Source: Acidimicrobiia bacterium (lineage in GTDB: Bacteria > Actinomycetota > Acidimicrobiia > Spongiisociales > ZC4RG35). From it: a stretch of DNA of 38,984 nucleotides. The stretch is from the NCBI GenBank assembly GCA_015488325.1, contig WFOA01000013.1, forward strand, positions 1 to 38,984, written 5' to 3'. This document shows, piece by piece, positions 7,183 through 36,810 of the stretch. The translations under genes and the position numbers were made by a program. Position 1 is the stretch's first letter; every line of letters begins with the position of its first letter. Under the pieces are notes generated by a model, which did not search any database, was not told the origin of the DNA, and saw only the letters and a program-made list of their open reading frames with translations.

Positions 7183-7381
7183 GCCTGCCTCTTCGCCACC
7201 GTGCGCGGACGGAAGCTCGTGACCTGCCCGGCGGATTCACCCTTCGGTCTGCGACGCCGCCGTCCCCGTTCCCCGCACCCGGCGCCGAATACGCCCTGCT
7301 CGCGGACGGAAGCAACGCCCTCATCTCCGAGTACCGACGAAACCTGCGGCCATGCGGGCATTTCTTGTCAGAGGTCGGCGA

Positions 7382-7387
7382 TATATT
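7382..7387 (+). promoter_or_regulatory. Candidate -10 hexamer of the DUF222-HNH gene
   Basis: TATATT ends 6 nt before the ATG at 7394. It lies within ATATATTGTGTATAT (7381-7395), an interrupted palindrome with 5-bp arms that could be an operator. The 210 bp upstream (7183-7393) hold nothing else recognisable except a 13-bp direct repeat CGCGGACGGAAGC at 7204 and 7301. Confidence 0.5.
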
Positions 7388-7393
7388 GTGTAT

Positions 7394-8560
7394 ATGGACG
7401 ATGTCGCACGTTGCGCCGTGGAGCTCCTGGGGTCGGGCGTCGAGGCTCTTGCGGCCGAGCAGGTGGAGAACGCCGACGGCTTCCTGTTGGCCGAACAGGT
7501 CGCAGAGCTGCGTCGCCTCGCCGACCGGCTGGAGGCGGAGGTCCTGCGCCGGGTCCGCCGGATCGACGACGAAGCGGTGGCCCCGAGCATCGGATACCCC
7601 TCGACGTCGGCGCTGCTGCGTCACCGGTGCAGGCTCCGCACCGGCCGCGCCCGGCGGATGGTCGCCGACGCCCGCCGCCTCGCTTCGATGCCCCTCACCG
7701 ACAAGCTCTACACCGCAGGCGACCTCTCCACCGACCAGGTGCGGATCCTCATCCAGGCGGCCGAGACCGAACCCGAGGCCTTCGACCGGTGGGAACCGAC
7801 CCTGGCGGACACGGCGCACACGGTGGAGCTCTGCGACGACCTGGCCGCGGTGGTCGCCCTCTGGCGCCAGCAGGTCCATCCGCTCCCCACCGCCGACGAA
7901 CGGCAACTGTTCGAACGGCGAGCCGCGGTGATGTGGCAGAACCTCGACGGCATGACCGAACTGTGGGCCCGGTTCACGCCCGAGGTGGGAGCCCGGATCC
8001 GCCACCTCGTCGACGCCGCCACCGCTCCACCGCGGGTCGGCGACGGTCGATCGGCCGGCCAACGGCGCGCCGACGCCCTCGCCGACCTCCTCCTCGGCGA
8101 CGGCGGCGGGCGGACCGAACTCGTCGTCCACACCGACCTCGACACCCTCACCGGATCCGCCTACACGATGGCCGACCCCGAATCCGGCGGCGTCTTCGGT
8201 CGCCGGGCCTTCGATCAGGCCTGCTGTGACCCGGTCGTCACCCGGGTCGTGTTCGGGCCCGAAGGCCAGCCCGTCGACGTCGGCCGTACCCGCCGGGTGG
8301 TCCCCGGCCACCTGCGCAAAGCGGTCGTCGCCCGAGACCGGCGATGTGCCTTCCCCGGCTGTGCCCGGCCGCCCAAATGGTGCGACGTCCACCACGTGGT
8401 CCCGTGGAGCCGAGGCGGCGAAACCAACGTCGACGGCCTCGTCCTCCTGTGCCGATTCCACCACACCCTCACCCACCTACACCGGCTCGCCATCACCTGG
8501 ACGGGGGACGGTTGGAGCTTCACCGACTCCGACGGCCGCCCCTGGCCGCCGCCGATATGA
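7394..8560 (+). CDS. DUF222 / HNH endonuclease-domain protein (13E12-repeat type)
   Basis: 388 residues. The N-terminal half is a helical DUF222 domain (NADGFLLAEQVAELRRLADRLE, then TGRARRMVADARRL and LSTDQVRIL). The C-terminus is an HNH nuclease: CAFPGCARPPKWCDVHHVV, then PWSRGGETNVDGLVLLCRFHHTLTH, with CxxxC and CxxH zinc-type pairs and the HH catalytic segment. This architecture is highly multiplied in actinobacteria (the REP13E12 group of Mycobacterium) and is suspected to be linked to mobile DNA, but its role is unproven. I preferred the ATG at 7394 over the track start at 7352 because the TATATT hexamer sits just upstream. It ends 10 bp from the convergent nurA-like gene. Confidence 0.9.
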   Translation: MDDVARCAVELLGSGVEALAAEQVENADGFLLAEQVAELRRLADRLEAEVLRRVRRIDDEAVAPSIGYPSTSALLRHRCRLRTGRARRMVADARRLASMPLTDKLYTAGDLSTDQVRILIQAAETEPEAFDRWEPTLADTAHTVELCDDLAAVVALWRQQVHPLPTADERQLFERRAAVMWQNLDGMTELWARFTPEVGARIRHLVDAATAPPRVGDGRSAGQRRADALADLLLGDGGGRTELVVHTDLDTLTGSAYTMADPESGGVFGRRAFDQACCDPVVTRVVFGPEGQPVDVGRTRRVVPGHLRKAVVARDRRCAFPGCARPPKWCDVHHVVPWSRGGETNVDGLVLLCRFHHTLTHLHRLAITWTGDGWSFTDSDGRPWPPPI

Positions 8561-8570
8561 ACCCCCGGCT

Positions 8571-9476
8571 CTACCCCGCCGCTGCCTTCAAGGCCCGGAA
8601 CATGAGGTCGGGATCTCCGAGACGGCGGCGCAGCTCCCGTTCCAGACCACCGATCGGGTAGAGGTTCTGGGGGGCACGGGGGTCCTTGTGGGGTGCCGAG
8701 GCGAACCGGGGCAGGGTGGCTGTCACCCGGTCTGCCAGCCCGGCAGCCTCGGCCACGGGTCGGTCAGCCGCGACCTCGCACCGGACGATGCCGCCCGCCA
8801 CCGACCCAGGACCCAGACGGGCGTACCACGAGAAGCGACTCCATGAGGTGGTGGTGAGGAACAGCGGCGTCCGGGTCCCCGGGGTGAGGTCGTCCAGGAC
8901 GGTCCGCAGCGCAGGAGGCAGGTAATGGACCCGTCGGGTCTTCACATACCCGACTGCTCCGGGGACGTGACGGTGATGCGACAACGGTCCGTCGACCACC
9001 ACCAGGCCCGTCCCTGCATGCACCGCCGCCACCGTCCCTTCGAGTTCCCCCATCCGCTGTTGCAACCCCAGCCACAACCGCTCGGGGGTCTCCCCCACCG
9101 TCGGACGGACCTCGTAGGTCCCGTGGCGGGTCACGATCGGAGCTGCGTCCGGAGCCGACGTGAACAGCCCCCGCTCCACCACCGCGTCCACCACCTTCGC
9201 CTCTCCGTCCGTACAGCGCACCGCCCCTGCGGCGTAGACGGCGCAGAGCCCCAGCGTCGCCGGCGGACCGTGGATCCACACGTTGGCGTCGACTCGACGG
9301 ACCCCGTCGACGAACAGCACGTCGTCGACAGGGTCGGACAGGGGACGGCGGGGAGCCCACCGGTCGGCGGGGACCTCCACCGTCGGGTCGACGTTGGATT
9401 CGGGCTCTTCCAGGTCCGCCGAGCCGGGTACCCCGTATTCCGGCGCCCAGGGTTCGACGGTGTACCGGGTGGTCAT
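8571..9476 (-). CDS. NurA-like nuclease, third gene of the sbcD-sbcC operon
   Basis: 301 residues. Features that recall the NurA nuclease (partner of the HerA translocase in DNA-end resection) are a first acidic strand DVLFVDGVRRVDANVWI near residue 50, a second strand LVVVDGPLSHHRH near residue 160, and a C-terminal PQNLYPIGGLERELRRRLGD. The DGPL strand and the C-terminal YP segment match the family pattern, but the histidine I would expect after the tyrosine is not obvious, so the catalytic set may be incomplete. The ATG overlaps the sbcC stop (ATGA), so it is translationally coupled to sbcC. A HerA-like ATPase is 9.5 kb away. The call rests on motif recall plus context. Confidence 0.6.
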   Translation of the reverse strand: MTTRYTVEPWAPEYGVPGSADLEEPESNVDPTVEVPADRWAPRRPLSDPVDDVLFVDGVRRVDANVWIHGPPATLGLCAVYAAGAVRCTDGEAKVVDAVVERGLFTSAPDAAPIVTRHGTYEVRPTVGETPERLWLGLQQRMGELEGTVAAVHAGTGLVVVDGPLSHHRHVPGAVGYVKTRRVHYLPPALRTVLDDLTPGTRTPLFLTTTSWSRFSWYARLGPGSVAGGIVRCEVAADRPVAEAAGLADRVTATLPRFASAPHKDPRAPQNLYPIGGLERELRRRLGDPDLMFRALKAAAG

Positions 9477-11803
9477 GCCTCCACCCTCTCCACCGTGGCC
9501 GTGGTCGGCCCCGAACGGACCTCGAAGCGCACCGGCAGCTGGTGGGCCAGGTCCCGGACATGGGTGACGAGCCCCACCATCTTGCCGCCCGCCCCGATCT
9601 CGGAGATGACCGAAGCCACCGTCTCCAAGGTTTCGGCGTCGAGGGTGCCGAACCCTTCGTCGAGGAAGATCGAGTCCAACCGACCCGCCCCGGAGACGGC
9701 CATCGCCGAGATGTGGTCGGCGAGGGACAGGGCGAGGGCCAACGAGACGAGGAAGGTCTCACCTCCCGACAGGGACCGCACCGACCGTCGTTCGTCGGCC
9801 GCCTGATGATCCACCACCTCGAAGGCGAGGTTGGAGGTCACGGCCAGGGAGTAGCGTCCCTCCGCCAGCTGGGCGAGACGCTGGTTGGCGCCGTCGGCGA
9901 GGACCCGGAGGGCCTCGTCGAGCAGCCACCGTTCGAATCCTGCGGCCGAGAGATGACGGGCCAGTGTCTTGGCTACCGCCGCCTGGACTTCGAGATCTTC
10001 GAGGGACCGCTCCCAAGCCTGTTTGCGTTCCAGGTCGGCGGCGAGGCGGTCCCGTATGCCGCGGGCGTCGGTCAGGGCCTCCACGACCACGTCCCGCAGC
10101 TGCCCGGCCGGTTCCAAACCCGCCTCCCGGCAGCGGACCGCCAGTGCGGCTTCGGCTTCGACGTAGGACCGTCGGAGCTCTTCGACTTCGGCCCTCGCCG
10201 CCGCCAGCCGGCTCGTCACCTCCGGTGCCGTCTCGTCACGCCATCGGAGCAGACGATGCCACCCCGCCGCCGGGTCGTCGGGGTCGATGGCGGGTGGAGC
10301 GAGGGAGGCCACGGTGTCCCGGGCGGCGATGAGGTCGGTGGTGAGCCTCTTCGCCGCCTCCTCGGCCTTCTCCAATGCGCCGGTGGCGGCGTCCAGTTCT
10401 CTCCGGGCCTCGTCCCTGGCGTTGCGGGCTGCGGCCAACGCCGTCTCCGCCTCGGCGACCCGGGCCACGAGCCCCTCGAGGTCGTCGGGACGATCGGTCA
10501 GCGACGCGTCGAGCCGGGCGATCCGACCGTCGACCTCCTCCAGGCTGGTCGCCACCCGTGACCGATCCGCCTCGGCGGCGACACGTTCCTCCCGGGCGGC
10601 CGACAGGCGCTGCTCGGCGGCGGCGAGGTCGCCAGACGGCGACGCCGGGGGGACCTCGGCCACCACCTGGCCGCACACGGGGCATTCCTCCCCGGGGCCA
10701 AGGCTCCGCCGCAGGTGGGAAGCGAGGTCGGCGTCCCGCGCCGCGACCAACGCCTCCTCCGCCGCCTGCTCGGCGGCGACCGCGGCCGCCAGGTCGGCCT
10801 CGGCCCGACGCAGCTCCTCTTCCAGCCCGGCTCTCCGCTCGGCCGCCTCCTTCCGTTCCTGCGCCGCCGCCGAGGAGCAGCTGGAGGGTCTCCCCGACCG
10901 TTCCCGGCTGGAACGCTGGCTGGCGGCGGCGACGGCCTGCTCGGCCTCGGCGAGCCGACCCGTGGCGGCGGCCACCGCCTGCCTGGCGTCGGCCAGCCGG
11001 GATCCGAGCTCGTCGAGGTCCTCGGGTGCCGACAACGCGGCGAGGGCGTCGCGGCGGGCCTCGAGCTCCCTCACCCGGCCCGCGGCCTCCCGGCCTCTCT
11101 CCTCCAGCTCCGCCAGCTTCGGGGCGCCCGCTTCGATCTCGGCGAGCAGCGCCGTGAGCTCTTCGACACGGGTCTCGGCGGCGGCCACCGCGCCCGGATC
11201 GACGTCGGCGAGGTCACCGAGACGGGAACGCACCTCGGCGGCCCTGCCTTCGGCCTCCGCCTGCCTGCTGCGGGCGGCCTTCGCCACCTCCTCGTAGATG
11301 CCGAGGTCGAGGAGCGACACGAGGAGATCCTGGCGGGCGGAAGGCTTGTCGTGGAGGAATCGGGCGAACTCTCCCTGGGGTAGCACCACCGATTTGGTGA
11401 ACTGGTCGAAGTCGAGGCCGAGCAGATCGGTGACCCGTTCGGTGACCTCGGCGGCGGTGCCCGCCAGCACGTGGCCACCGGACTCCAGGCGGGCCTCGTC
11501 GGTGTTCGCCCCTCCCCGGGAGGTGCGTCGCACCACCCGCACGACGGTGTGGATCCGTCCCGCCACTTCGAAATCCAGCCGGACCTTCATCTCCAGTCTC
11601 CCGGTGCTGATCACCGGGGCGACATCCCGCCGGCCGTGTCGCGGCACCGCCCCGTAGAGGGCGAACACCATGGCGTCGATGATGGAGCTCTTGCCGCTGC
11701 CGGTGGGTCCGGTGAGGGCGAACAGGTCGACGCCGTCGAAGTCGATCTCGGTGGGTTCCCTGAAGGCGGTGAAGCCTTCCAGCTCAAGTCGTCGTGGGCG
11801 CAC
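9473..11803 (-). CDS. sbcC: DNA double-strand break repair ATPase SbcC (Rad50-like)
   Basis: SMC-like ATPase that, with the SbcD nuclease, opens and trims DNA ends and hairpins. The Walker A motif GPTGSGKS is at residues 32-39. A long Ala/Glu/Arg-rich coiled coil follows on both sides of the zinc hook CPVC (Cys374 and Cys377, almost exactly central). The signature RSLSGGETFLVSLALAL and Walker B IFLDEGFGTLD lie near the C-terminus. The 776 residues are short beside the roughly 1050 of E. coli SbcC, implying shorter arms. The track start at 11866 is upstream of the real one; GTG 11803 begins VRPRRLELEGFTAFRE, overlapping sbcD by 20 nt and giving the normal N-terminus. Confidence 0.95.
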   Translation of the reverse strand: MRPRRLELEGFTAFREPTEIDFDGVDLFALTGPTGSGKSSIIDAMVFALYGAVPRHGRRDVAPVISTGRLEMKVRLDFEVAGRIHTVVRVVRRTSRGGANTDEARLESGGHVLAGTAAEVTERVTDLLGLDFDQFTKSVVLPQGEFARFLHDKPSARQDLLVSLLDLGIYEEVAKAARSRQAEAEGRAAEVRSRLGDLADVDPGAVAAAETRVEELTALLAEIEAGAPKLAELEERGREAAGRVRELEARRDALAALSAPEDLDELGSRLADARQAVAAATGRLAEAEQAVAAASQRSSRERSGRPSSCSSAAAQERKEAAERRAGLEEELRRAEADLAAAVAAEQAAEEALVAARDADLASHLRRSLGPGEECPVCGQVVAEVPPASPSGDLAAAEQRLSAAREERVAAEADRSRVATSLEEVDGRIARLDASLTDRPDDLEGLVARVAEAETALAAARNARDEARRELDAATGALEKAEEAAKRLTTDLIAARDTVASLAPPAIDPDDPAAGWHRLLRWRDETAPEVTSRLAAARAEVEELRRSYVEAEAALAVRCREAGLEPAGQLRDVVVEALTDARGIRDRLAADLERKQAWERSLEDLEVQAAVAKTLARHLSAAGFERWLLDEALRVLADGANQRLAQLAEGRYSLAVTSNLAFEVVDHQAADERRSVRSLSGGETFLVSLALALSLADHISAMAVSGAGRLDSIFLDEGFGTLDAETLETVASVISEIGAGGKMVGLVTHVRDLAHQLPVRFEVRSGPTTATVERVEA

Positions 11804-12938
11804 CGACGTCTCCCAGCAGTTCGGCGAAGAGAGCCTCCACCCGTTCGTCCCGAGCTTCGCGTGCATCCAGGTATTCGGCGAAGAGCTCGACCGGTGTCCG
11901 CCCCACTCGGGTCGGGCCCCCGGCAGGCCGGTGTTCCCGACGTTCGGGCGTCAGGGTCACCTCGACGGCGTCGGGGAGCTCGGCCCGTACCTCGTCGGCC
12001 AGTCCCGCCCGGGCAGGCTCGTCGAGTTCGACCCGGAGGTAGGCGTCGTCGAGTCCCCGACCGGCTTCGATGACCTCTTCCAGGGTGCCGACGAGATGGA
12101 CGAGGCGCCGACCAGACGTCAGCGGCACCTCCTCGACCCGGGCGGGCACTCCCGGCGCCGCCTCGACGAGGAGGACCGCCTTTGTGTGGCCGGCCTCCCC
12201 GAAGTCGAGCTGGAGAGGCGAGCCCGAATACCAGACGGTGGAGGCCGCCGGGATCCGCTGGGCACGATGGAAGTGGCCGAGGGCGACGTAGCTGAGCCCC
12301 CCCGGGAAGGCACCGGCTGGAATCGGGTAGTCGAGGACGGTGTGGGCCCGGCGTTCGCCTCCCCCGGGCGTCGCGCCGACGACGGTGAGATGAGCGACGA
12401 CGACGTTCACCACGTCGAGGTCGGGCTCGCCGACCAGGTGGGCGATGATGCGCTGCAGCCGGGCGGCGTAGGTGCCTTCGTGTTCGGACGCCTCGCCTTC
12501 CATCAGGTCTGCGGCACGGACGATGGCTCGACGCGACACGAAGGGGACGAGGGCGAGCCGAGCCGTCTCCCCCCGTTCGGTGACGACGTCGACCACACCC
12601 CCTTCGTCCGGCCGGGCGAGGGTCGCCGCCATCGTGACCCGACCCAACTCCAGCAGCGGTGTCACCGCCCGGAGCCGCCCCGGATGGTCGTGGTTCCCCG
12701 CGATCGCCACCACCGGCGCCACCTCTGCCAGGTCGAGCAGGGCTCGGTACACGATCCGTTCGGCTTCCGCCGACGGCGCGGCCGTGTCGAACAGGTCGCC
12801 GGCCACCAGTACCAGGTCGACTCGGCGGTCGGCGGCGATCTCGACGATCTCGGTGAGTACGTCGCGGTGTTCTTCGGCGCGGCTTCGACCTCGGATGGTG
12901 CGCCCGACATGCCAGTCGGAGGTGTGGAGGATCCTCAC
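11784..12938 (-). CDS. sbcD: Exonuclease SbcD (Mre11-like)
   Basis: 384-residue metallophosphoesterase nuclease, Mn-dependent partner of SbcC. The metal-binding motifs appear in order: RILHTSDWHVG, LVLVAGDLFDTAAPS and AIAGNHDHPGR, then a GHFHRAQRI segment giving the late histidines. The C-terminal part holds the capping and SbcC-binding region. The start is a GTG whose codon is 8 nt behind a TACGAT hexamer, which suggests a leaderless message. Transcription order is sbcD, sbcC, nurA-like, all overlapping, so one transcript very probably makes all three proteins. Confidence 0.95.
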   Translation of the reverse strand: MRILHTSDWHVGRTIRGRSRAEEHRDVLTEIVEIAADRRVDLVLVAGDLFDTAAPSAEAERIVYRALLDLAEVAPVVAIAGNHDHPGRLRAVTPLLELGRVTMAATLARPDEGGVVDVVTERGETARLALVPFVSRRAIVRAADLMEGEASEHEGTYAARLQRIIAHLVGEPDLDVVNVVVAHLTVVGATPGGGERRAHTVLDYPIPAGAFPGGLSYVALGHFHRAQRIPAASTVWYSGSPLQLDFGEAGHTKAVLLVEAAPGVPARVEEVPLTSGRRLVHLVGTLEEVIEAGRGLDDAYLRVELDEPARAGLADEVRAELPDAVEVTLTPERREHRPAGGPTRVGRTPVELFAEYLDAREARDERVEALFAELLGDVGAPTTT

Positions 12939-12946
12939 GCCGGCGG

Positions 12947-12952
12947 ATCGTA
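12947..12952 (-). promoter_or_regulatory. Candidate -10 hexamer of the sbcD operon
   Basis: TACGAT on the minus strand ends 8 nt before the GTG start of sbcD, in the 37-bp gap after the desaturase gene. Confidence 0.45.
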
Positions 12953-12975
12953 CCGGTCGGGTGTGACGAAACCGG

Positions 12976-13818
12976 TCAGACGCCGACGGCCCCGTAGCGA
13001 CGTTCGAAGGCCGCCGCCTTCGCCAGTACCTGCGCGGGCAACCCCAGGAGTTTCTCCTGGAACTCCTGGGCGGTGGTGGTGAGTCCGGTCAACCCCTCGA
13101 TGTTCCAGTCGCGGATCAGAGGCCGAAGCACCCGGTCGTGATGGATCCGGAGGTTGTAGACCCCGGCTTTGGCGATGGACACCGCCCGTCGGAGGAAGTT
13201 GGGGATCCCCACCCCCGGCATCTTGAAGTTGGACAGCACCGAATAGATACGGGGGAGGACGATGGACGGGTCTTCGTCCAGCATCGCCGAGAGGACCCCC
13301 CGATAGAAGAGGAAATGGTGGTTCTCGTCGGCGGCGATCCTGCTCATGAGCTCGTAGGCGACTTCGTCGTCGGCGAGCTTGCCGGCGTTGCGGTGGCTCA
13401 CCCTGGTGGCCAGTTCTTGGGCGGAGGTGTAGACGAACAGGTCGATCGGGTCGTCGGCGTCGAACTCGTAGCCCCCGGCCATCGTCGCCAGACGGTCGTC
13501 TTCCAGCTCCACCGGGTCGCAGTTGCGGCTCACCAACAGATAGCTGCGCAAGGCGATGGCGTGCTGACCTTCCTCGGCCGTCCAGATTCCGTTCCAACGC
13601 CGCAGGGCGCCGTGGTCCCCGAGGTGCTTCTCGATCGTGGCGTGGTAGTAGGGCAGGTTGTCTTCGGTGAGGAGGTTGAGGACGAGGGCGGTACGGGTCT
13701 CGGGGCTCAACGTCGCCTGGGACTCGTCCCAGGGTTCGTCGCGGAAGTTGCGGCCCTGTTCCCAGGGGACGATCTCGTGGGCGTACCAGTGGGTGCGACG
13801 CTCGACGTGTTCGTCCAT
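12976..13818 (-). CDS. Acyl-ACP desaturase (ferritin-like di-iron, DesA family)
   Basis: Soluble di-iron fatty-acid desaturase of the actinobacterial DesA type. Iron ligands are visible in order: LLTEDNLPYY, WTAEEGQHAIAL, SAQELATRVSHRN and AADENHHFLFY. The first ATG in frame is 13818 (MDEHVERRTHW), giving 280 residues. However, the frame stays open upstream, and its translation VELLASVSPAIERL aligns with the conserved N-terminal helix I recall from mycobacterial DesA1 (LLHELEPVVEKYL). Translation therefore probably starts earlier, yet there is no ATG, GTG or TTG before the upstream stop. ATT at 13903-13905 with GGGGGTGAG 10 nt upstream, or CTG near 13854, are candidates. The coordinates given use the canonical ATG and are probably short by 10-29 residues. 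Confidence 0.9.
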   Translation of the reverse strand: MDEHVERRTHWYAHEIVPWEQGRNFRDEPWDESQATLSPETRTALVLNLLTEDNLPYYHATIEKHLGDHGALRRWNGIWTAEEGQHAIALRSYLLVSRNCDPVELEDDRLATMAGGYEFDADDPIDLFVYTSAQELATRVSHRNAGKLADDEVAYELMSRIAADENHHFLFYRGVLSAMLDEDPSIVLPRIYSVLSNFKMPGVGIPNFLRRAVSIAKAGVYNLRIHHDRVLRPLIRDWNIEGLTGLTTTAQEFQEKLLGLPAQVLAKAAAFERRYGAVGV

Positions 13819-14044
13819 GAGGCGTTCGATGGCAGGCGAAACGGACGCGAGCAGCTCGACGGATTCGGGGTGAGGAATGAGGAAACTCCAGGGCTCGGGT
13901 GGAATCTCAGCTTAACTCACCCCCACGTTTGCGCCGAAGAACCCTGATGCCGCCCGCCACACCCCTTCGGTCGGGCCCCGTCCCCGACCTGTTTCCCCAC
14001 CCGATGAAACGTCTCGTTCACGCACCGAGTCTGAACACGACGTG

Positions 14045-15484
14045 ATGGCGGATCGAACACCGCAGGGCCGAGCCCAGACGCAACCGCGTGCGCCGGCTGC
14101 CGATCGGAAAGTCATGAGCGCCGAACAGCGTGTCGACGACGCGATGCTCGGAGACTTCGACACCGCCCATCGGGCTCTGGCCGAACGTGCCCGGGAGGTC
14201 CTGGAGTCGAACTGGCTGGGACACGCCACCCGTCCGGCCGCCGGGCTGTATCCACACCAGTGGAGCTGGGACGCCGGGTTCATCGCCATCGGCTACGCCC
14301 GGTTCGACACTCGGCGTGCGGCCGCCGAACTCCGATCCCTGTTCCGAGGCCAGTGGTCCGACGGGATGCTCCCCCACATCGTGTTCAACGGCGGAGGCGA
14401 GTCGTATTTCCCCGGCCCCGACTACTGGGGCACCGAGCGCTCACCCTACGCGCCACCGCGCCCCCGCACCTCGGGGATCGTCCAACCTCCGATCCACGCC
14501 ACAGCGGCCCTCCGCACCTTCCGCCACGCCACCGACCGTGACACCGCCCGGGCGCTCCTGGAGGAGCTGATGCCGAAACTCGCCGCCTGGCACGGGTACC
14601 TGCACCGGGAGCGGGTCCGTCCCGGCATCGGCCTCGTCGAGATCTGGCATCCGTGGGAGTCGGGGATGGACAACTCGCCGCTGTGGGACGAAGCCCTGAG
14701 CCGCATCGTCCCCGCCCGGGTCCGCGACTGGGTCCGGGCGGACCTCGACCATGCCGACCCCGCCGAACGACCCACCGACGAGGACTACCTGCGCTACCTG
14801 CATCTCGTCGACCTGTTCCGAGAGCTCTCCTACGATCCGGAACGGATCCGCGCCGCCACCCCCTTCGCCGTCGCCGACGTCCTCATGAACACCCTGTGGG
14901 TGCAGGCCAACCGGGATCTGGCGTCGATCGCCGACATCATCGGCGCCGACGGGAGCCGGTTCACCGCCTGGGCCGACGAGGCAGCCGCCGCCATGGGCGA
15001 GATCTGTTGGGACGACACCCTCGACGTGTTCGTCGACTTCGACCTCGTCGCCGGTGCCCCGATCTGTACCCGGGTCGGCGCCGCCTTCGCTCCCCTGTTC
15101 GCCGGGATCCCCGACGCCGACCAGGCCCGACGCATGGTGCGCCGCCTCCACGACGAGGTCGGCGAACACCTCGGCGCCACCACCTGGATGGTGCCGAGCT
15201 TCGATCCGTCCGAGCCGGGCTTCATGCCCACCAACTACTGGCGTGGACCGGTCTGGATCAACGTGAACTGGGTCCTCTATCAGGGTCTGCGGCGGTACGG
15301 CTACCACGTCGAGGCGGCGTCGCTGCGAGCTTCGCTCCTCGCCCTCGCCGAACGCTCCGGCTTCTTCGAGCACTACGACCCGGTCACCGGGAACGGACAC
15401 GGCGCCGACCGGTTCGCCTGGACCGCCGCCCTCGTCCTCGACCTGCTGTTCGAATCGGGCGCCGACGACGCCCGGACCGCCTGA
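14045..15484 (+). CDS. mgh: GH63-family glycoside hydrolase, probable mannosylglycerate hydrolase
   Basis: Cytosolic (alpha/alpha)6-barrel hydrolase of 479 residues; no signal peptide. Segments LYPHQWSWDAGFIAIG, WSDGMLPHIVFN, EIWHPWESGMDNSP, NYWRGPVWINVNW and GFFEHYDPVTGNG match the GH63 group that includes mannosylglycerate hydrolase of Thermus and Rubrobacter, which splits alpha-mannosylglycerate into mannose and glycerate. Counted from the internal ATG at 14114, the DNSP aspartate is residue 186 and the FFEHYD glutamate is residue 419, close to the catalytic D182/E419 I recall for the Thermus enzyme. The neighbours are mannosylglycerate biosynthesis genes, which strongly supports this substrate over glucosylglycerate. 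The start is uncertain: 14042 GTG, 14045 ATG or 14114 ATG. Confidence 0.82.
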   Translation: MADRTPQGRAQTQPRAPAADRKVMSAEQRVDDAMLGDFDTAHRALAERAREVLESNWLGHATRPAAGLYPHQWSWDAGFIAIGYARFDTRRAAAELRSLFRGQWSDGMLPHIVFNGGGESYFPGPDYWGTERSPYAPPRPRTSGIVQPPIHATAALRTFRHATDRDTARALLEELMPKLAAWHGYLHRERVRPGIGLVEIWHPWESGMDNSPLWDEALSRIVPARVRDWVRADLDHADPAERPTDEDYLRYLHLVDLFRELSYDPERIRAATPFAVADVLMNTLWVQANRDLASIADIIGADGSRFTAWADEAAAAMGEICWDDTLDVFVDFDLVAGAPICTRVGAAFAPLFAGIPDADQARRMVRRLHDEVGEHLGATTWMVPSFDPSEPGFMPTNYWRGPVWINVNWVLYQGLRRYGYHVEAASLRASLLALAERSGFFEHYDPVTGNGHGADRFAWTAALVLDLLFESGADDARTA

Positions 15485-15536
15485 CGCCACCTCCCCATTC
15501 GGGACGAACGCCCATTCCCAAACCGGCCGCCACGGG

Positions 15537-15542
15537 TACTGT
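15537..15542 (+). promoter_or_regulatory. Candidate -10 hexamer of mpgS
   Basis: TACTGT ends 8 nt before the ATG at 15551, within the 66-bp gap after the hydrolase gene. It touches the TTG used as start by the ORF track (15542), so the ATG is the better start. Confidence 0.45.
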
Positions 15543-15550
15543 TGGACTTG

Positions 15551-16888
15551 ATGAGACTCGAGTACCCCCACCGGTTCGAACGTTTCGGCGCCGTCCGAAT
15601 CCATGCTCTGCAGCAGGTCATCGAGCTCGATTCGGGCGCCGACGAGGAGGCGCCGGCGACGACCATCCAGGGACGCATGGTGCAGCACGTCTCGGCCCGT
15701 CACCTGGCGAGCGTCGAGAAGCGGATGGCGATCGTCGTGCCCTGCAAGGACGAACGGCGCAAGGTGATCGAAGGGGTCCTGTCGGGGATCCCCCACGACT
15801 GTCTGATCATCCTCGTGTCGAACTCGGTCCGTGATCCGGTGGATCGTTTCGACATGGAGTGCCGCACCGTCGAGCATTTCTGCCATCTGGCGGAGCGGTC
15901 GGCCGTGGCGATCCATCAGCGCGACCCGGGTCTGGCGGAGGCGTTCCGACTGGCGGGATACACCGAGATCCTCGACGACGACGGGCTGGTCCGGAACGGG
16001 AAGGGGGAGGGGATGCTCGTCGGTCTGCTCCTCGCCTCCCTGGCCGGCCGGGACTACGTCGGTTTCATCGACGCCGACAACTACGTCCCCGGAGCCGTCC
16101 ACGAGTACGCCAAGGCCTACGCCGCCGCCCTCCACCTGGCGGAGAGTCCCTATGCGATGGTGCGCATCTCGTGGATGTCGAAGCCGAAGATCCAGGACGG
16201 ACGGCTCTTCTTCAACCGTTGGGGACGCACGTCCCAGGTCACCAACCAGTTCCTGAACCTGCTCATCGCCGAGTACTCGGGGTTCGGCACCGACATCATC
16301 GCCACCGGCAACGCCGGCGAGCATGCCGTCAGCATGGAGCTGGGGCTGCGGATGCGGATCGCCGGAGGCTTCGCCGTCGAACCCTTCGAGTTCCTCGACC
16401 TGTTCGAGCAGTTCGGCGGCGTGATCCCGTCACCGCATCCCGAAGTCCTCAAGCACACCGTGGACGTCTACCAGGTGGAGACCCGCAACCCCCATTTCCA
16501 CGAGAACAAGGGCCACGGCCACGTCCAGGAGATGCGACTGCAGGCCCTCAACGTCCTCTACCACTCCCCCATCTGTCTCGACTCGGTCCGCGACGAGATC
16601 AGGACGTTCCTCACCGAGCAGGGGGTGATCGGAGCTGAGGAGGAGCCTCCGGCCGAACACGTCTACCCGCCCCTCGTCGACCTCGACCGCAGCCGGTTCC
16701 TGGCCGCCCTCGTGGAACACGCCGAGTCCTTCGTGCAGATCAGCCGCCACCGCATCGCCGACATCGTCGTCGAGGAGCCGATCCTCCTCGACACGGGCAG
16801 ACCGATCGACGTCGAAGGGGTCATCGACCTGGGAGAGATCCAGGGCGACCTCGCCGAAGGGCTCACCGAGAGCGATGCCGACGCCTGA
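15551..16888 (+). CDS. mpgS: Mannosyl-3-phosphoglycerate synthase (GT55)
   Basis: Transfers mannose from GDP-mannose to 3-phosphoglycerate, the first step of the two-step mannosylglycerate pathway. The protein follows the archaeal and Thermus MpgS sequence closely: FGAVRIHALQQVIELD, MAIVVPCKDERRKVIEG, IPHDCLIILVSNS, HQRDPGLAEAF, GKGEGMLVGLLLA, the metal-binding DXD in YVGFIDADNYVPGA (D174-A-D176), TGNAGEHA and QVETRNPHFHENKGHGHV. At 445 residues it is about 50 longer than the roughly 390 of archaeal enzymes; the extra part is a C-terminal tail (VEEPILLDTGRPIDVEG and beyond) of unknown role. It overlaps mpgP by 14 nt, so synthase and phosphatase are coupled. Confidence 0.95.
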   Translation: MRLEYPHRFERFGAVRIHALQQVIELDSGADEEAPATTIQGRMVQHVSARHLASVEKRMAIVVPCKDERRKVIEGVLSGIPHDCLIILVSNSVRDPVDRFDMECRTVEHFCHLAERSAVAIHQRDPGLAEAFRLAGYTEILDDDGLVRNGKGEGMLVGLLLASLAGRDYVGFIDADNYVPGAVHEYAKAYAAALHLAESPYAMVRISWMSKPKIQDGRLFFNRWGRTSQVTNQFLNLLIAEYSGFGTDIIATGNAGEHAVSMELGLRMRIAGGFAVEPFEFLDLFEQFGGVIPSPHPEVLKHTVDVYQVETRNPHFHENKGHGHVQEMRLQALNVLYHSPICLDSVRDEIRTFLTEQGVIGAEEEPPAEHVYPPLVDLDRSRFLAALVEHAESFVQISRHRIADIVVEEPILLDTGRPIDVEGVIDLGEIQGDLAEGLTESDADA

Positions 16889-17681
16889 GGCGCCTCGGGT
16901 CATCCTCTTCACCGACCTCGACGGCACCCTCCTCGACCACGACACCTACCAACCCGGCCCGGCGACCGTCGCCGTGGAGAGGCTCGTCCGAGCCGAGATC
17001 CCCGTCGTGTTCTGCTCGGCCAAGACCGTCGCCGAGCAGCGGGCGCTGGCTCGGGCGCTCGGGCTGCACCCCGGCTTGATCGCCGAGAACGGGGCGGCGG
17101 TGTCGCTTCCGCCCGGGTTCGCCGGTCTGGCGTCGGGGGTGGAACGGACCTTCGGTCTGCGCTACGAGGAGGTCCGCGGCGCGATCGCCGAGGTGGCGGA
17201 GAGCCTCGGATGCTCGGTTCGGGGATACGGCGACATGTCCCGTGCGGAGGTGGCTGCGGTCACGGGGCTCGATCTCGACGCCGCCCGTCGAGCCATGGAC
17301 CGATGCTGCACCGAGACCCTCGTCGAACTCGTCGGGGCCGATCCCGAGTCCTTCGCCCGGAGTCTCGAGGCCAGAGGCCTGCGGCTGCAGCGCGGCGCCC
17401 GGTTCTGGACGGTGCAGGGACCCCACGACAAGGGACGGGCGGTCCGCTGGGTGGAGACGTGGCTCCGAGACCGGGGGACGACCCCGACGACCTGCGGGGT
17501 GGGCGACGCCGACAACGACCTGGAGATGCTGGCGGCGGTCGACCACCCCTTCCTGGTCCGCCGCCCCGACGGCTCGTGGGCGGATCTCCGGCTCCCCCGG
17601 CTCCGTCGCCTGTCCGGGATCGGCCCGGCCGGCTTCGCCGAAGCCGTCGAGGTGATCCTCGCGGAGGTGTCCGGACCCTGA
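16875..17681 (+). CDS. mpgP: Mannosyl-3-phosphoglycerate phosphatase (HAD type IIB)
   Basis: HAD-superfamily phosphatase of 268 residues that removes phosphate from mannosyl-3-phosphoglycerate to give mannosylglycerate. Motif I is LFTDLDGTLLDHDT (nucleophile Asp and acid Asp), motif II is within VVFCSAKTVAEQ, motif III lysine is in GPHDKGRAV, and motif IV is GVGDADNDLEM. LIAENGAAV is typical of the Cof/MpgP group. The start ATG lies inside the end of mpgS. A free-standing copy directly after mpgS makes the substrate assignment strong. The gene ends 80 bp before mgs. Confidence 0.92.
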   Translation: MPTPEAPRVILFTDLDGTLLDHDTYQPGPATVAVERLVRAEIPVVFCSAKTVAEQRALARALGLHPGLIAENGAAVSLPPGFAGLASGVERTFGLRYEEVRGAIAEVAESLGCSVRGYGDMSRAEVAAVTGLDLDAARRAMDRCCTETLVELVGADPESFARSLEARGLRLQRGARFWTVQGPHDKGRAVRWVETWLRDRGTTPTTCGVGDADNDLEMLAAVDHPFLVRRPDGSWADLRLPRLRRLSGIGPAGFAEAVEVILAEVSGP

Positions 17682-17749
17682 CGAAGACATCATTCGTGTC
17701 GGCCCGTCCGGGGCCGCGACGGTTCCGTCTCGAAGCCGGACGCGGCGGG

Positions 17750-17755
17750 TAGGGT
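17750..17755 (+). promoter_or_regulatory. Candidate -10 hexamer of mgs
   Basis: TAGGGT ends 6 nt before the mgs ATG. It would give the one-step synthase its own leaderless transcript, separate from mpgS-mpgP. Confidence 0.45.
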
Positions 17756-17761
17756 GCGGCC

Positions 17762-18928
17762 ATGGGCACCATGGTCGTCTTCCCTTTCAAGACCGAACGC
17801 CCCGAGGTGGTCCTCCGCAACATCAGGGTCGCCGCCGCCCACGAGGCGGTGAGCGAGGTCCTCTGCGTCGGCTACGAAGAGGAGTCGACCTACCGGGCGA
17901 TCGCCGACGCCAGCCCCGGTATCGCCAAGGCGGCCCGTACCCCGGTGACCCTCCGCCTCCAGGACCGGATCGGCACCCGCCGTCCCGGCAAAGGCGACGG
18001 CATGAACACCGCCCTCCGCCATTTCCTCGACACGCCCCACGACCGCCTCCACTTCTACGACAGCGACATCACCACGTTCGACGGTTCCTGGATCACGAAG
18101 GCGGAGCGCGGCCTCGACCTCGGCTACGACGTCGTCCGCCATTTCTTCCCTCGGGCGGCCACCGACGCCATGATCACCTGGCTGGTGACCCGGACCGGGT
18201 TCGCCATCCTCTTTCCTCGCTCCGAGCTCCCATGGATCGAACAGCCCTTGGGGGGCGAACTGGCGTTGAGTCGGCGGGCCGCCAAGGCCCTCGCTGCCGA
18301 CCATCGGGTCGCCGAACGCAGCGACTGGGGGATCGACACGATGCTCGCCTTCTCGTCGGTGCAGGACCGGATGTCGATCCTCGAGGTCTACGTGCCTCAG
18401 GGCAAGGCCCACAAGCTGTACGGACAGCTCACCGACCTGAAACGGATGCTCGTCGAATGCTTCGCGGCGGTCCGCGACCTGAGGGAGGAAACGTTGGAGC
18501 CGGGCATCGTCCACCACGTCGAATACCCCGACGTGGTCCCGCCGTCCATCGCCGAGAAGGTGGGATACGACGTCGAAGGGACGATACAGCTCCTCCCCGA
18601 GGCCTGGTCCGAACGTCAGATGGAGCTGTTGGAGTATTTCCCCATCCCGATCCGGGATGGGATGGTGGCGGCCCGGCACCGGACCACCTTCTCGTTCCTC
18701 GACGAATGCTCCTGGTACGACGCCTTCGAGGTGCTCCTCCAGCATTTCGACGAGGCCGACGAGGACTGGGCAGACCTGCTGTTCCACCTGTGGACCGTCC
18801 GGGTCCTCGCCTACACCCACGAGGCGGCGCTGCGCGGCTACTCCTACGCCCTGCGCTACCTCCACGGGATGGTGTTCCGGTACCTGTACCGGGCCGCGAC
18901 GGGGAGGGTCCTCCGGCCCGGCGAGTGA
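17762..18928 (+). CDS. mgs: Mannosylglycerate synthase (GT78, one-step pathway)
   Basis: Cytosolic retaining mannosyltransferase that makes mannosylglycerate directly from GDP-mannose and D-glycerate. 388 residues. Segments VVFPFKTERPEVVLRNIRV, TRRPGKGDGMNTALR, HFYDSDITTF, RHFFPRAATDAMITW, EQPLGGEL, RSDWGIDT and VPQGKAHKLYG follow the Rhodothermus marinus enzyme. By my codon count the DXD is D100-S-D102, the substrate-contact arginine is R131 and the metal histidine is H217, the same numbers I recall for the R. marinus structure, so the N-terminal 217 residues align without net gaps. The gene lies 80 bp after mpgP and has its own hexamer. Its 3' end is 10 bp from the convergent herA-like gene. 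Confidence 0.95.
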   Translation: MGTMVVFPFKTERPEVVLRNIRVAAAHEAVSEVLCVGYEEESTYRAIADASPGIAKAARTPVTLRLQDRIGTRRPGKGDGMNTALRHFLDTPHDRLHFYDSDITTFDGSWITKAERGLDLGYDVVRHFFPRAATDAMITWLVTRTGFAILFPRSELPWIEQPLGGELALSRRAAKALAADHRVAERSDWGIDTMLAFSSVQDRMSILEVYVPQGKAHKLYGQLTDLKRMLVECFAAVRDLREETLEPGIVHHVEYPDVVPPSIAEKVGYDVEGTIQLLPEAWSERQMELLEYFPIPIRDGMVAARHRTTFSFLDECSWYDAFEVLLQHFDEADEDWADLLFHLWTVRVLAYTHEAALRGYSYALRYLHGMVFRYLYRAATGRVLRPGE

Positions 18929-18938
18929 GGGCGTTCCG

Positions 18939-20618
18939 CTACTCGACCAGGCCTTCGAAGGGATCCTCCGGTCCGGCACCGACGGTGGGACCCACCTCCG
19001 ACGCCCGGGTGGCCCAGGCGGGGAAGGGGAACTCGACGACCATCGGCACGGGCAGCTCCGGTTGGGAGACCAGCATCGTCCCCGGCTTGATGATGGTTGC
19101 CCGCTGGCGTTGCACCGTCGGCAGGAACCCGTACTCTTCCCGGGCCGCCTCCGCCGAGTCGAGCCTGCCCACCACTCGGATCGACGAGTTGGCGATGATC
19201 CTCCGTTCCACCTCGGACGCGGTCTGTTGCGCCCCGATGAGGATCACCCCGAGGCTCCTGCCCCGCTCGGCCACGTCCAGGAGGATCTCCTTGATGGGGC
19301 TGGACCCTTCCCGGGGGGCGTACTTGTTGAGTTCGTCGAGGACCAGCAGCAGCAGCTCCCGGGACTGGCCGGCCCGTTCCTTCTCCTCGAAGGCTCTGCG
19401 TACGGTCACCCCCACCACGAATCGTTTCGCCCGGTCGTTGAGGTTGTGGAGGTCCACCACCGTCACCTGGTGGTCCAAGCCGATGCGGTGCCGTTCGGGG
19501 TGGGGCACGTCGGCCCGGATGAGCCGTTCGACGTGACGAACCGCCCCTTGGAGCCGGCGCACGAAGGCGTTGATCGTCCCCGTCCCGATGGCCGGACCCG
19601 CCCATGAGTAACGGGTCTCGTCGTCCTGGACCTTGCGGGTGATGAGGTCGGCGAGTTCCCGGAAGGTGCGGACCTCGGTGTCTTCGATGCGGACGCCGCC
19701 GTCGCCGATCGGAGCGGCCCGGTGGAGGCGGGCCATGACGTTGTAGACGACCATCGTGTACTGCGCACGGTCGTCTTCGGCGTCGGCGAACAGGAACGGC
19801 AACAGATCGTCACGGCAGAACTCCTCCAAGGTCCAGAAGAAGGAGGTCACCTGGTCGGTCCGGGAGGAGACGTCGGGAGCGGCGGAGGCGGCTCCGATCC
19901 GAGGTGGCGCCCAGATCCCCACCGACCGGAAGGGTTCGGCAGGCAACCCGAGGAGCCGGTACCGGTCCCGCTGGGTGTCGTCGAGGGCCAGGTTGGGCCG
20001 GTCGAGGTGGAGGAGGTCTTCGCCTTTGACGTTGAAGATGAGGGCTTTCGTGTTCACCGCCGAGGCCCCCAACACTCCCGAGGTGAACAGGCCGTGGAGG
20101 AGGAACGTGGCGTAGGTGGTCTTCGTCGCCACCCCGGAGATCCCCGAGATGTTGACGTGGGCGCCGCGGCGGCCGTCGATGAACTCCAAGTTGACGTAGA
20201 GGGGCTCTCCCGCCCGTGACAGCCCGACGGGCAGCCGGTCGGTCATCCGGTCGAAGAAGAGGGCCTGGTCCCGTTCGACGCCGTGAGCCCGTCTCACCTC
20301 TGCACCGGGCCGGGGCGGCACGAAGGTCTCCGGCTCGAACCGGGTGGCGGTCACCTGGGCGGCCTCGGAGACTTCGGCGGGGAGGAGCCCGTCGGAGATG
20401 AGGAAGACGTCGGAGTCGAACCGTGCCCCTTCGTGGCGGGCCCGCACCTGGGAGACCATCCCGTAGATCTTCACGGTCTCGCCGCCGGGGAGTTCCCGTT
20501 CGCAGGCGACGACGTCGTCGAGCTGGAGGTAGCAGCCGTCCGGCACCCCCACCCAGAATTCGAGGGGGGTGGCGTCCTCGGTGCCGATCACCCGGCCGAC
20601 GACGTCGGGGTTGGACAT
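18939..20618 (-). CDS. HerA-like hexameric DNA translocase ATPase
   Basis: 559 residues. An N-terminal beta-rich HAS-barrel-like region (VGRVIGTEDATPLEFWVGV to residue 100) precedes a RecA/FtsK-type ATPase core. The Walker A motif is GISGVATKTT with K166, and Walker B is LLLLVLDELN with D428-E429. ANSSIRVVGRLDS and the QRQRATIIKPGTM segment fit the HerA/DUF87 group rather than FtsK or VirB4. HerA works with NurA and Mre11-Rad50 in archaeal DNA-end resection; a NurA-like gene and sbcDC are 9.5 kb away here. TACCCT (20626-20631, minus strand) lies 7 nt before the ATG, so the gene probably has its own leaderless transcript. The SMP-30-like gene diverges from it. Confidence 0.8.
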   Translation of the reverse strand: MSNPDVVGRVIGTEDATPLEFWVGVPDGCYLQLDDVVACERELPGGETVKIYGMVSQVRARHEGARFDSDVFLISDGLLPAEVSEAAQVTATRFEPETFVPPRPGAEVRRAHGVERDQALFFDRMTDRLPVGLSRAGEPLYVNLEFIDGRRGAHVNISGISGVATKTTYATFLLHGLFTSGVLGASAVNTKALIFNVKGEDLLHLDRPNLALDDTQRDRYRLLGLPAEPFRSVGIWAPPRIGAASAAPDVSSRTDQVTSFFWTLEEFCRDDLLPFLFADAEDDRAQYTMVVYNVMARLHRAAPIGDGGVRIEDTEVRTFRELADLITRKVQDDETRYSWAGPAIGTGTINAFVRRLQGAVRHVERLIRADVPHPERHRIGLDHQVTVVDLHNLNDRAKRFVVGVTVRRAFEEKERAGQSRELLLLVLDELNKYAPREGSSPIKEILLDVAERGRSLGVILIGAQQTASEVERRIIANSSIRVVGRLDSAEAAREEYGFLPTVQRQRATIIKPGTMLVSQPELPVPMVVEFPFPAWATRASEVGPTVGAGPEDPFEGLVE

Positions 20619-32952: not shown

Positions 32953-33888
32953 ATGGATCGTCTTCTTCTCGTCGCCAATCCGGCGGCTTCGGGGTTCACC
33001 GGGGGGCTCCACCGGACCATCTGCCGGATCCTGTCCCGCCGCTGGGAGGTCCACCCGGCATGGCCGCAGTCGGCGGACCATGCCCGGGCGTTGACGGCCG
33101 AAGCGGTCCAGGCGGGTTGCCCCCTGGTGGTGGCGACCGGTGGTGACGGGATCGTCCACCACGTGGCGCAGGCCGTGGCCGGCACCGAGACGGTGCTGGG
33201 GATCATCCCCGTCGGCACCACGAACGTCTACGCCCGTCTCGCCGGCCTCCCCCGCCGACCGTCCGCCGCCGCCAAGATGCTGGCGTCGGGCTACGACGTC
33301 TCGCCGACCCCCGTGGTCTGGGTGACGGCGGAGAGCGGCGACGGGAACGCGGCCCGTTGGGTGACCCTGTTCGCCCTCGGCGTCGGCCACGACGCCGAGA
33401 TCGTGCGGCGAGCCGAAGCAGAGCCGTACCGAAAATACCGGTTCGGTTCGCTCCACTACGCCCGGACGGCGGTGGCGACGGTGTGGTCGGAGCTGCGACG
33501 GGTGCCCCTGCGGCTGCATCTGGAAGGCGACGGCGTCGAGACCGACACGGCGGGACTGATGGTCCAGTTCCACGACACCTACACCTTCTTCGGGCGTGCC
33601 CCTCTGCGGCTGGGCCCACGCGGAGGACCTCCGATGACGGTGCTGGCGATCGACGCGCTCCGCCTGCGCCGAACCCCCGTGATCCTTCGCCGCATCCTGG
33701 CCGGTGACGGGATGCAGGGGGTGAAGGGGATTCGGGTGTGGTCCGGGGTCAGGCGTCTCACCGTCCGGGCCGAAGATCCCGTCCTCACCCAGGCCGACGG
33801 TGAGCTGCGCGCAGCGTGGCGAAAGCTGGAGCTCAGATACGTACCGGACGGTCTGGCGGTGGCGACCCCGCCGTCTCCGACCGGGTGA
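32953..33888 (+). CDS. Diacylglycerol kinase-family lipid kinase
   Basis: 311 residues of the DAGK catalytic family (DgkB/YegS-like). The N-terminal VANPAASG, the nucleotide loop VVATGGDGIVHHVAQAV and LGIIPVGTTNVYARLAGLP are the diagnostic blocks (GGDG and the GT-x-N motif). FALGVGHDAEIV and a VLTQADGEL segment near the C-terminus complete the fold. It is likely cytosolic and membrane-associated, phosphorylating diacylglycerol or another lipid with ATP. The track start at 32491 is an antisense run-through. The last 56 bp overlap the 3' end of the convergent GTPase gene. Confidence 0.92.
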   Translation: MDRLLLVANPAASGFTGGLHRTICRILSRRWEVHPAWPQSADHARALTAEAVQAGCPLVVATGGDGIVHHVAQAVAGTETVLGIIPVGTTNVYARLAGLPRRPSAAAKMLASGYDVSPTPVVWVTAESGDGNAARWVTLFALGVGHDAEIVRRAEAEPYRKYRFGSLHYARTAVATVWSELRRVPLRLHLEGDGVETDTAGLMVQFHDTYTFFGRAPLRLGPRGGPPMTVLAIDALRLRRTPVILRRILAGDGMQGVKGIRVWSGVRRLTVRAEDPVLTQADGELRAAWRKLELRYVPDGLAVATPPSPTG

Positions 33889-35251
33889 GGACCAGTTCGA
33901 ACTCGGTGAACGCGGCCAGGGCGGAGCCACGGCGGCGCAGCACGTCCCTCACCCGGCGACCGATCTCCTGGTCGAGTCGCCGTCGGAGCCGTGCCTCGAC
34001 CTCCGCCCGTCGTTCCTCCATGCGGTCGCGGATCCGTCGGCGATCCCAGGATCGGACCACCGGGCCGACCACCCACACCCCCACGACGGCGACGGCGCCG
34101 ACGACCGCCCATCCGACACCTCCGCCGACTCCGAGACCGACGGCGAGGGCCGCCGAGGCGACGACGACCCGCAGCCACCGTGTCACCGTCGCCGCCTTCG
34201 ACGGGATCGGTGCGACCCCGACCTCGGCCACGCAGCGCCGGACCTCGGCGGCCACGTCCACCGCCGCGAGTTCTTCACCGGCCTCGCCGCCCACCTCCCC
34301 CGCCACCGCGGCGACCAACTCCTGGATCTCCTCGACGCCCCTCCACCAGTCGCCGACCCTCCCGGGGTCGAGACACGCGGTGGCGAGATGTTCGGCCGCG
34401 TCCGCCAAGGTCCCTTGCCAGCGGTGCCCGAACCCCGTCCCTCTGTCCGCTCCGGCGGCAGCCGCCAGCGCTCGGGCGGACCGTCGGAGCACCGTGGTGG
34501 CATGCCGCCACACCAGCGTCTTGGCCTCCCATCGTGTCTCCAGCTCGGCGACGAGGGTGTCGATCCCTTCGGGGTCGCCGAGCTCGGGGTCGGCGGCGGT
34601 GAGGACGATCGGCGGCTCGACGAACCCGGCCACCCGAAGCGAAGCCCGCAAGTCGGCGGCCACCGCCTCCACCTCGTCGGTGGTGAGCCGGTCGACCTGG
34701 TTGAGGACGAACACGAACCGGTGCTGGTCCCCGACGAGGGACGCCAGATAGTCGAGGTGGATTCGGGCGTCCTGGTACTTCTCCGGATCGAAGACCCAGA
34801 CCACGGCGTCGATCCGTGACAGCAGTGCGTCGACCTGGAGGGCGTGCTCGGTGACGAAGGAATCCAGGTCGGGGAGGTCCACCACCGTGAGCCATCCTCG
34901 GTGGCCCTCGCCGACGCGGTCGGTGATCCCCAGATCGTCGAGCAGTCGTACGATGCCGGGCTCGGGATCGGCCGGCAGCCAGGCAACGGGGCGTTCGGTG
35001 GTGGGTCGTCGGGGCGAGACGGGTGCGACCTCCCGACCGGCGATGGCGTTCAGCAGGCTGGTCTTGCCCGATCCCGTGCCTCCCGCCAAGGCGACCACCA
35101 GCGAATCGCCCAGGTAGCCGAGCCTCCGTCGAACGTCCCGTCCGATCGCGGCGGCCTCCTCCACCGTCCCGGGAGGGGCGACGTCACGACAGAGGGCGAC
35201 CAGCCGGTCGTAGGCGTCGAGGATCGCCAACGCGTCAGACGGAGCCGGCAC
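33833..35251 (-). CDS. Dynamin-like membrane GTPase, second of a pair
   Basis: 472 residues. G1 is GGTGSGKT at 57-64. G3 is VVDLPDLDS (the usual DxxG glycine replaced by Asp), and G4 is VLNQVDRL. After a helical middle region, two close hydrophobic segments (VVVASAALAVGLGVGGGVGWAVVGAVAVVGVWVVGPV region, about residues 375-415) would insert in the membrane, followed by a long basic amphipathic helix. Such GTPase pairs are common in actinobacteria and recall YfjP/dynamin-like proteins; a role in membrane remodelling or cell-envelope work is plausible but unproven. Start GTG 35251 overlaps the end of the first GTPase by 17 nt. The 738-residue track ORF is this gene plus antisense-frame sequence. 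Confidence 0.85.
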   Translation of the reverse strand: MPAPSDALAILDAYDRLVALCRDVAPPGTVEEAAAIGRDVRRRLGYLGDSLVVALAGGTGSGKTSLLNAIAGREVAPVSPRRPTTERPVAWLPADPEPGIVRLLDDLGITDRVGEGHRGWLTVVDLPDLDSFVTEHALQVDALLSRIDAVVWVFDPEKYQDARIHLDYLASLVGDQHRFVFVLNQVDRLTTDEVEAVAADLRASLRVAGFVEPPIVLTAADPELGDPEGIDTLVAELETRWEAKTLVWRHATTVLRRSARALAAAAGADRGTGFGHRWQGTLADAAEHLATACLDPGRVGDWWRGVEEIQELVAAVAGEVGGEAGEELAAVDVAAEVRRCVAEVGVAPIPSKAATVTRWLRVVVASAALAVGLGVGGGVGWAVVGAVAVVGVWVVGPVVRSWDRRRIRDRMEERRAEVEARLRRRLDQEIGRRVRDVLRRRGSALAAFTEFELVLTRSETAGSPPPDRPVRI

Positions 35252-36680: not shown

Positions 36681-36810
36681 GGGAGGGGATTGTCGCACAC
36701 CGGCGAGATGACGGTCGGCCGGAGCGTCGGCTGCGTTCCCGGGATGCCTCCGGGCGGTTCGCCTCCCACCGATCCCGGTGACCGATACCGACGAACGGCT
36801 CGGGTCGGCT

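Follow-up and report, generated by a model that had tools for sequence, protein, structure and literature searches.

Genes at the locus

We analysed a 38,984-nucleotide stretch of DNA from an uncultured Acidimicrobiia bacterium (GenBank assembly GCA_015488325.1, contig WFOA01000013.1, positions 1 to 38,984), the whole of which is referred to here as the window. It carries four minus-strand genes that we assign to nurA, sbcC, sbcD and herA. Between sbcD and herA lie a desaturase gene and a group of plus-strand mannosylglycerate genes. The features are as follows.

8571-9476 (-): nurA, predicted 301-aa NurA nuclease of bacterial type
9473-11866 (-): sbcC, Rad50-like ATPase (Pfam AAA_23 1.1e-20, SbcC_Walker_B 6.7e-12, TIGR00618 5e-85)
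11784-12938 (-): sbcD, Mre11-like nuclease (TIGR00619 3.8e-55, above its cut-off; Metallophos 5.3e-14)
12976-13818 (-): fatty acid desaturase type 2 (Pfam FA_desaturase_2 3.4e-57), ~37 bases upstream of sbcD
14042-18928 (+): mannosylglycerate cluster between sbcD and herA (NCBIfam and Pfam matches), containing the next four genes
14042-15484 (+): glucosylglycerate-hydrolase-like enzyme (NCBIfam NF047898, below cut-off)
15542-16888 (+): mannosyl-3-phosphoglycerate synthase, MPGS (TIGR02460)
16875-17681 (+): mannosyl-3-phosphoglycerate phosphatase, MPGP (TIGR01486)
17762-18928 (+): one-step mannosylglycerate synthase, MGS (Pfam MGS_GT/MGS_C)
18939-20618 (-): herA, predicted 559-aa HerA translocase with a HAS-barrel N-terminus

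An earlier note on this DNA had claimed four such open reading frames, and all four were present on the minus strand where it had placed them. The note had further described the nurA-like gene as fused into the sbcDC operon. The start of nurA overlaps the stop of sbcC by 4 bases, but nurA is a separate gene and not a fusion. The overlap between sbcD and sbcC is 83 bases when counted from the first ATG of sbcC, or ~20 bases from a GTG at 11803. This GTG lies close to the beginning of the family matches and is likely to be the true start of sbcC. The distance from herA to nurA, which had been put at 9.5 kb, was measured as 9,480 bases. Most of the ~6 kb that separates herA from sbcD is taken up by the mannosylglycerate cluster and, because these opposite-strand genes intervene, herA in the window cannot share a transcript with sbcD-sbcC-nurA. 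Three minus-strand reading frames in this gap (14441-16324, 16863-17693 and 17690-18979) had no family matches and were rejected as shadows of the plus-strand mannosylglycerate genes. The cluster holds both known mannosylglycerate routes, the one-step route (MGS) and the two-step route (MPGS and MPGP). The same block is present in one other genome (G001, locus L090), and an MPGS-like gene also lies between herA and sbcD in two more (G016 and G019).

Other genes of the window were noted in addition. A DUF222-HNH endonuclease gene at 7352-8560 (+) is convergent with nurA, and two adjoining GTPase-like reading frames occupy 33833-36914 (-), the upstream one matching Pfam Dynamin_N. The Fe-S RecB-type nuclease reported earlier at 36.8 kb was recovered at 36811-37599 (-) as a stand-alone RecB/Cas4-type PD-(D/E)XK nuclease (Pfam PDDEXK_1 1.1e-19); cysteines clustered at its C-terminus suggest an Fe-S site. 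We found no link between this gene and the HerA set.

Assignment of the four proteins

To assign the 301-aa protein, we used a family profile, which, like that for HerA, was built from an alignment of 22 relatives. The NurA profile matched only two solved structures in the PDB, Deinococcus radiodurans NurA (7f6d_H, E=1e-45) and Thermotoga maritima NurA (TM1739; 1zup_A, E=1.2e-20), in line with the NurA relationship that had been proposed. The earlier note had staked its reading beforehand on the NurA RNase-H-like fold. The AlphaFold model of the window protein (pLDDT 89.5) matched NurA structures first in Foldseek (7f6d, 1zup and 2ygk), the archaeal NurA 2ygk being the more distant match, and the refuting condition set out there did not arise. 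The single-sequence Pfam NurA match was weak (E=0.008; 16.1 bits against a curated cut-off of 21 bits), and we therefore base the identification on the profile of the family and on the fold. At E-values up to 0.1, 19 of the 22 family members matched Pfam NurA, the best at 7.5e-07. D57, E146, D162, K179, H263 and R267 are invariant in the family alignment, and D57, K179 and R267 map to D53, K201 and R309 of D. radiodurans NurA. Near the N-terminus, an invariant Trp10 is followed by a conserved Tyr-Gly; by comparison with the Deinococcus complex, the Trp would lie near the pin motif, and together these residues may be the counterpart of the pin region in Deinococcus. By sequence profile and predicted fold the protein is NurA, with a predicted nuclease function.

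The HerA family profile matched D. radiodurans HerA (7f6d_B) over nearly its full length (E=4e-190). The AlphaFold model of the window protein (pLDDT 83.8) aligned to 7wrw_A in Foldseek with E=1.9e-66, 49% identity and a TM score of 0.88. Its P-loop reads GISGVATKTT, with K166 and T167 in it. The stretch GISGVATKT, which does not have the usual Gly before the Lys, is identical in Deinococcus HerA, so the missing Gly is a family trait. Walker A K166 and Walker B D428-E429, as first reported from the sequence, were correct and align with K175 and D487-E488 of D. radiodurans HerA. The wider mapping pairs T167, D201 and the pore residues R436 and R493 with T176, D220, R495 and R552. In both NurA and HerA, every mapped residue that had been mutated or given a role in the Deinococcus pair (PMC9960219) is conserved. 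Judged by profile and model, this 559-aa protein is a HerA of the HerA/FtsK superfamily, a predicted translocase with a HAS-barrel and a RecA-like ATPase domain.

We considered whether unrelated RNase-H-like and FtsK-like proteins had been misassigned as NurA and HerA. Single-sequence Pfam scores below the cut-offs would fit such an error: the HAS-barrel match of the window HerA was weak (E=0.015), only 6 of the 22 HerA relatives matched that model, weakly, and few matched DUF87. However, the family profiles aligned with most of the length of the NurA and HerA structures and the folds concur, and we rule misassignment out on these grounds.

The remaining two proteins are clear family members by sequence: SbcD belongs to the phosphoesterase family, and SbcC is an ATPase with the Walker A motif GPTGSGKSS and a predicted zinc hook (CPVC at residues 395-398).

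Distribution of the cluster

We examined the occurrence of the genes in 60 related genomes. NurA and HerA were each found in 51 of the 60 and SbcD in 50, all with strong scores, and the identity of NurA to the window protein was ~40-80%. In most of the 51 NurA-positive relatives, HerA and SbcD adjoin or lie near NurA, and the four-gene grouping is far from chance. Eight relatives had none of the three proteins and three had partial sets, two of them at contig ends (G024 and G052) and one with sbcC broken off (G027). Gene order followed one of two patterns in the thirty loci examined. The family of the window and some of its sister families have HerA-SbcD-SbcC-NurA; other families have NurA-HerA-SbcD-SbcC. 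In the relatives herA usually adjoins sbcD or lies close to it, and only in some lineages do other genes separate the two. The mannosylglycerate cluster and the desaturase gene split the two in the window and in a relative of the same genus; other genomes have varied gaps or none.

A HerA search listed the 80 named loci most like the window. Nearly all of those with enough flanking sequence had HerA-SbcD-SbcC-NurA in the same order and on the same strand; as the search kept the most window-like matches, the other order is under-represented among them. The named loci include cultured Actinoplanes, Paractinoplanes, Longispora and Actinocatenispora, and in Salsipaludibacter the cluster order was seen as far as the contig extends.

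Co-occurrence of the four genes across actinobacteria was supported in a sample of 296 Actinomycetota genomes. HerA was present in 58 of these and a strong NurA in 56, every one of them HerA-positive, leaving two genomes with HerA alone (Fisher p=6e-50, with related genomes counted as independent). Seven further genomes had NurA only, as weak, diverged matches that all came from one family. In 50 of the 58 HerA-positive genomes, herA, sbcD and nurA were clustered on one strand, and most of the remaining eight had the genes on different contigs. sbcC lay between or beside the other three in the loci examined. The one locus read from the seven NurA-only genomes is from another Actinomycetota family (f29; genome G070, locus L180, 2581-10899) and holds a strongly diverged set, NurA-HerA-(265-aa ORF)-SbcD-SbcC; with diverged HerA and SbcCD beside NurA, this locus is no exception to the co-occurrence.

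The cluster also occurs beyond Actinomycetota. It was found in metagenome-assembled genomes labelled Gemmatimonadetes/Gemmatimonadota and Dehalococcoidia/Chloroflexota, the phylum being that of the label only. A cyanobacterial plasmid record has four adjacent genes, annotated as two hypothetical proteins, sbcD and sbcC, with HerA and NurA matches there. Within Actinomycetota, the Streptomyces plasmid NZ_CP134205.1 (locus L186) has four adjacent genes annotated as ATP-binding protein, SbcD, SMC family ATPase and hypothetical protein. The HerA-NurA-SbcCD set thus looks more widespread in bacteria than is usually stated.

Scores against an SbcD profile linked HerA to one type of SbcD. Operon-type SbcD was present in 57 of the 58 HerA-positive genomes, and HerA was absent from all 47 genomes whose SbcD matches were exclusively lower-scoring. 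The profile was itself derived from operon SbcDs, so the pattern is an association with a clade and not proof of joint inheritance. In four Actinomycetota genomes (L176, L177, L178 and L179), operon-type SbcCD has no HerA-NurA beside it, so the two pairs can separate. At one of these loci (L177, genome G098), sbcC is instead followed immediately by a gene for a UvrD-type helicase.

This separation is one of the observations that would suit HerA-NurA and SbcCD being merely neighbours, that is, two DNA-end nucleases under shared regulation with no hand-over of substrate. The existence of two gene orders (30 and 20 of the clustered genomes) points the same way, as does the position of herA kilobases away from the rest of the set in the window and in two other genomes (G109 and G130). 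However, the four genes are close together in Actinomycetota, in a cyanobacterium and in Oceanithermus (PMC5448004), and archaeal Mre11 has been reported to interact with HerA (PMC2288612). We regard a purely neighbourly relationship as rather unlikely.

Proposed role in DNA-end processing

Taken together, herA, sbcD, sbcC and nurA probably encode a bacterial DNA-end-processing module, a reading drawn from sequence comparison and predicted structures. SbcD-SbcC, which are Mre11-Rad50-like, would bind a double-strand break, a hairpin or a protein-blocked end and then clip it. The opened end may be handed to the HerA hexamer, which would pump duplex DNA into a NurA dimer, where the pin would split the strands. 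The RNase-H-like sites of NurA would then cut, with preferential degradation of the 5' strand leaving a 3' tail for RecA, and the module would have a role in recombination repair. Given a conserved four-gene bacterial cluster, the simplest reading has SbcCD opening or marking the ends on which HerA-NurA would act.

The closest known system is the NurA-HerA pair of D. radiodurans (PDB 7F6D, 7WRW/7WRX). It belongs to the same two families, its HerA is ~49% identical to that of the window, all mapped functional residues are kept, and 7f6d is a solved complex of homologues of the window HerA and NurA. For this pair, complex formation, translocation and digestion of the 5' strand during translocation have been described (PMC9960219). 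D. radiodurans strains deleted for nurA or herA have weak damage phenotypes or even withstand damage better (PMC9960219), which speaks against the proposed role. The literature consulted does not link the Deinococcus pair to sbcCD, a connection stated as open (PMC4663267), whereas here sbcD and sbcC are part of the cluster. The archaeal mre11 operon (herA, mre11, rad50 and nurA; Sulfolobus, PMC4351679, PMC2288612) brings the same four functions together, and S. islandicus requires each of the four genes for viability (PMC4351679). The archaeal arrangement, with four genes on one strand, recurs in relatives of the window genome but not in the window itself, where herA stands apart. The earlier description of the set as archaeal-style therefore holds for the four functions but not for the type of protein. 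The set is bacterial and Deinococcus-like and uses SbcD/SbcC, and archaeal HerA and NurA are only ~11-14% identical in fold matches (14% for HerA). That this bacterium has a machine related to the archaeal one is supported by identity, fold, residues and clustering, with resection itself as the inferred part.

AdnAB and RecBCD would carry out the same proposed step, end resection, with unrelated proteins, a UvrD helicase and a PD-(D/E)XK nuclease. An AdnAB-like helicase-nuclease is also encoded in the source genome (UvrD helicase and PDDEXK, with a second PDDEXK ahead of it), so the HerA-NurA-SbcCD module is not its sole resection route. Ku, of the competing end-joining route, was not detected in this genome. 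PDDEXK_1 was discarded as a proxy for the absence of AdnAB, since 272 of the 296 genomes match it. It is possible, though we would not call it probable, that a single four-component HerA-NurA-SbcCD assembly resects ends in several phyla in parallel to AdnAB/RecBCD and is largely inherited as a unit with its own SbcCD type.

Alternatively, the cluster could be an anti-invader nuclease in which HerA-NurA destroys phage or plasmid ends, SbcCD opens protected or hairpin ends and repair is a side role. HerA relatives act in defence complexes (Sir2-HerA and DUF4297-HerA) that appear among the more distant fold matches, and TdpAB, which likewise pairs a HerA-family motor with a nuclease or effector, comes lower in the NurA fold-match list. 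On the Streptomyces plasmid, TIGR02680/TIGR02678/DUF2397 genes that resemble the Wadjet anti-plasmid system lie a few kb from the cluster, and a 2026 paper argued that the archaeal complex fits an antiviral role and not end resection (PMC12977600). In contrast, the known defence complexes and TdpAB have other partners, weak sequence similarity and no SbcCD. The defence HerAs are 10-15% identical in fold matches, against 49% for Deinococcus HerA. PADLOC gave no support for a known anti-phage HerA system, with no NurA match and only weak, partial HerA matches, and the neighbours are SbcCD, not Sir2 or DUF4297. Unlike many defence genes, the cluster has been kept stably in most of a family, and it is seldom found on plasmids (6/72,556) or phages (2/50,697). 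We consider a primarily anti-invader role unlikely and favour DNA-end processing.

Bacterial HerA-NurA is known, and linkage to sbcDC has already been reported for Oceanithermus profundus, where the same four-gene cluster (nurA-hepA-sbcD-sbcC) is given one sentence (PMC5448004). What stands out here is the unexpected breadth. Oceanithermus is a single genus of Thermales, whereas we find the cluster in Actinomycetota, a cyanobacterium and metagenome-assembled genomes of other phyla, and in a second order, herA-sbcD-sbcC-nurA. Our literature search, which did not cover older comparative genomics and so does not fully judge priority on the bacterial linkage, turned up no earlier description of the cluster from Actinomycetota.

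In the literature consulted, HerA-NurA is described as archaeal plus Deinococcus-Thermus, and whether it acts in resection or against viruses is disputed (PMC12977600). The cluster suggests functions for nurA and herA genes, which often carry no annotation beyond 'hypothetical protein' or 'ATP-binding protein'. Roughly one in five of the sampled Actinomycetota carry it, among them the culturable Actinoplanes, Longispora and Actinocatenispora, which offer isolates in which both the link to SbcCD and the choice between resection and antiviral roles may be addressed.
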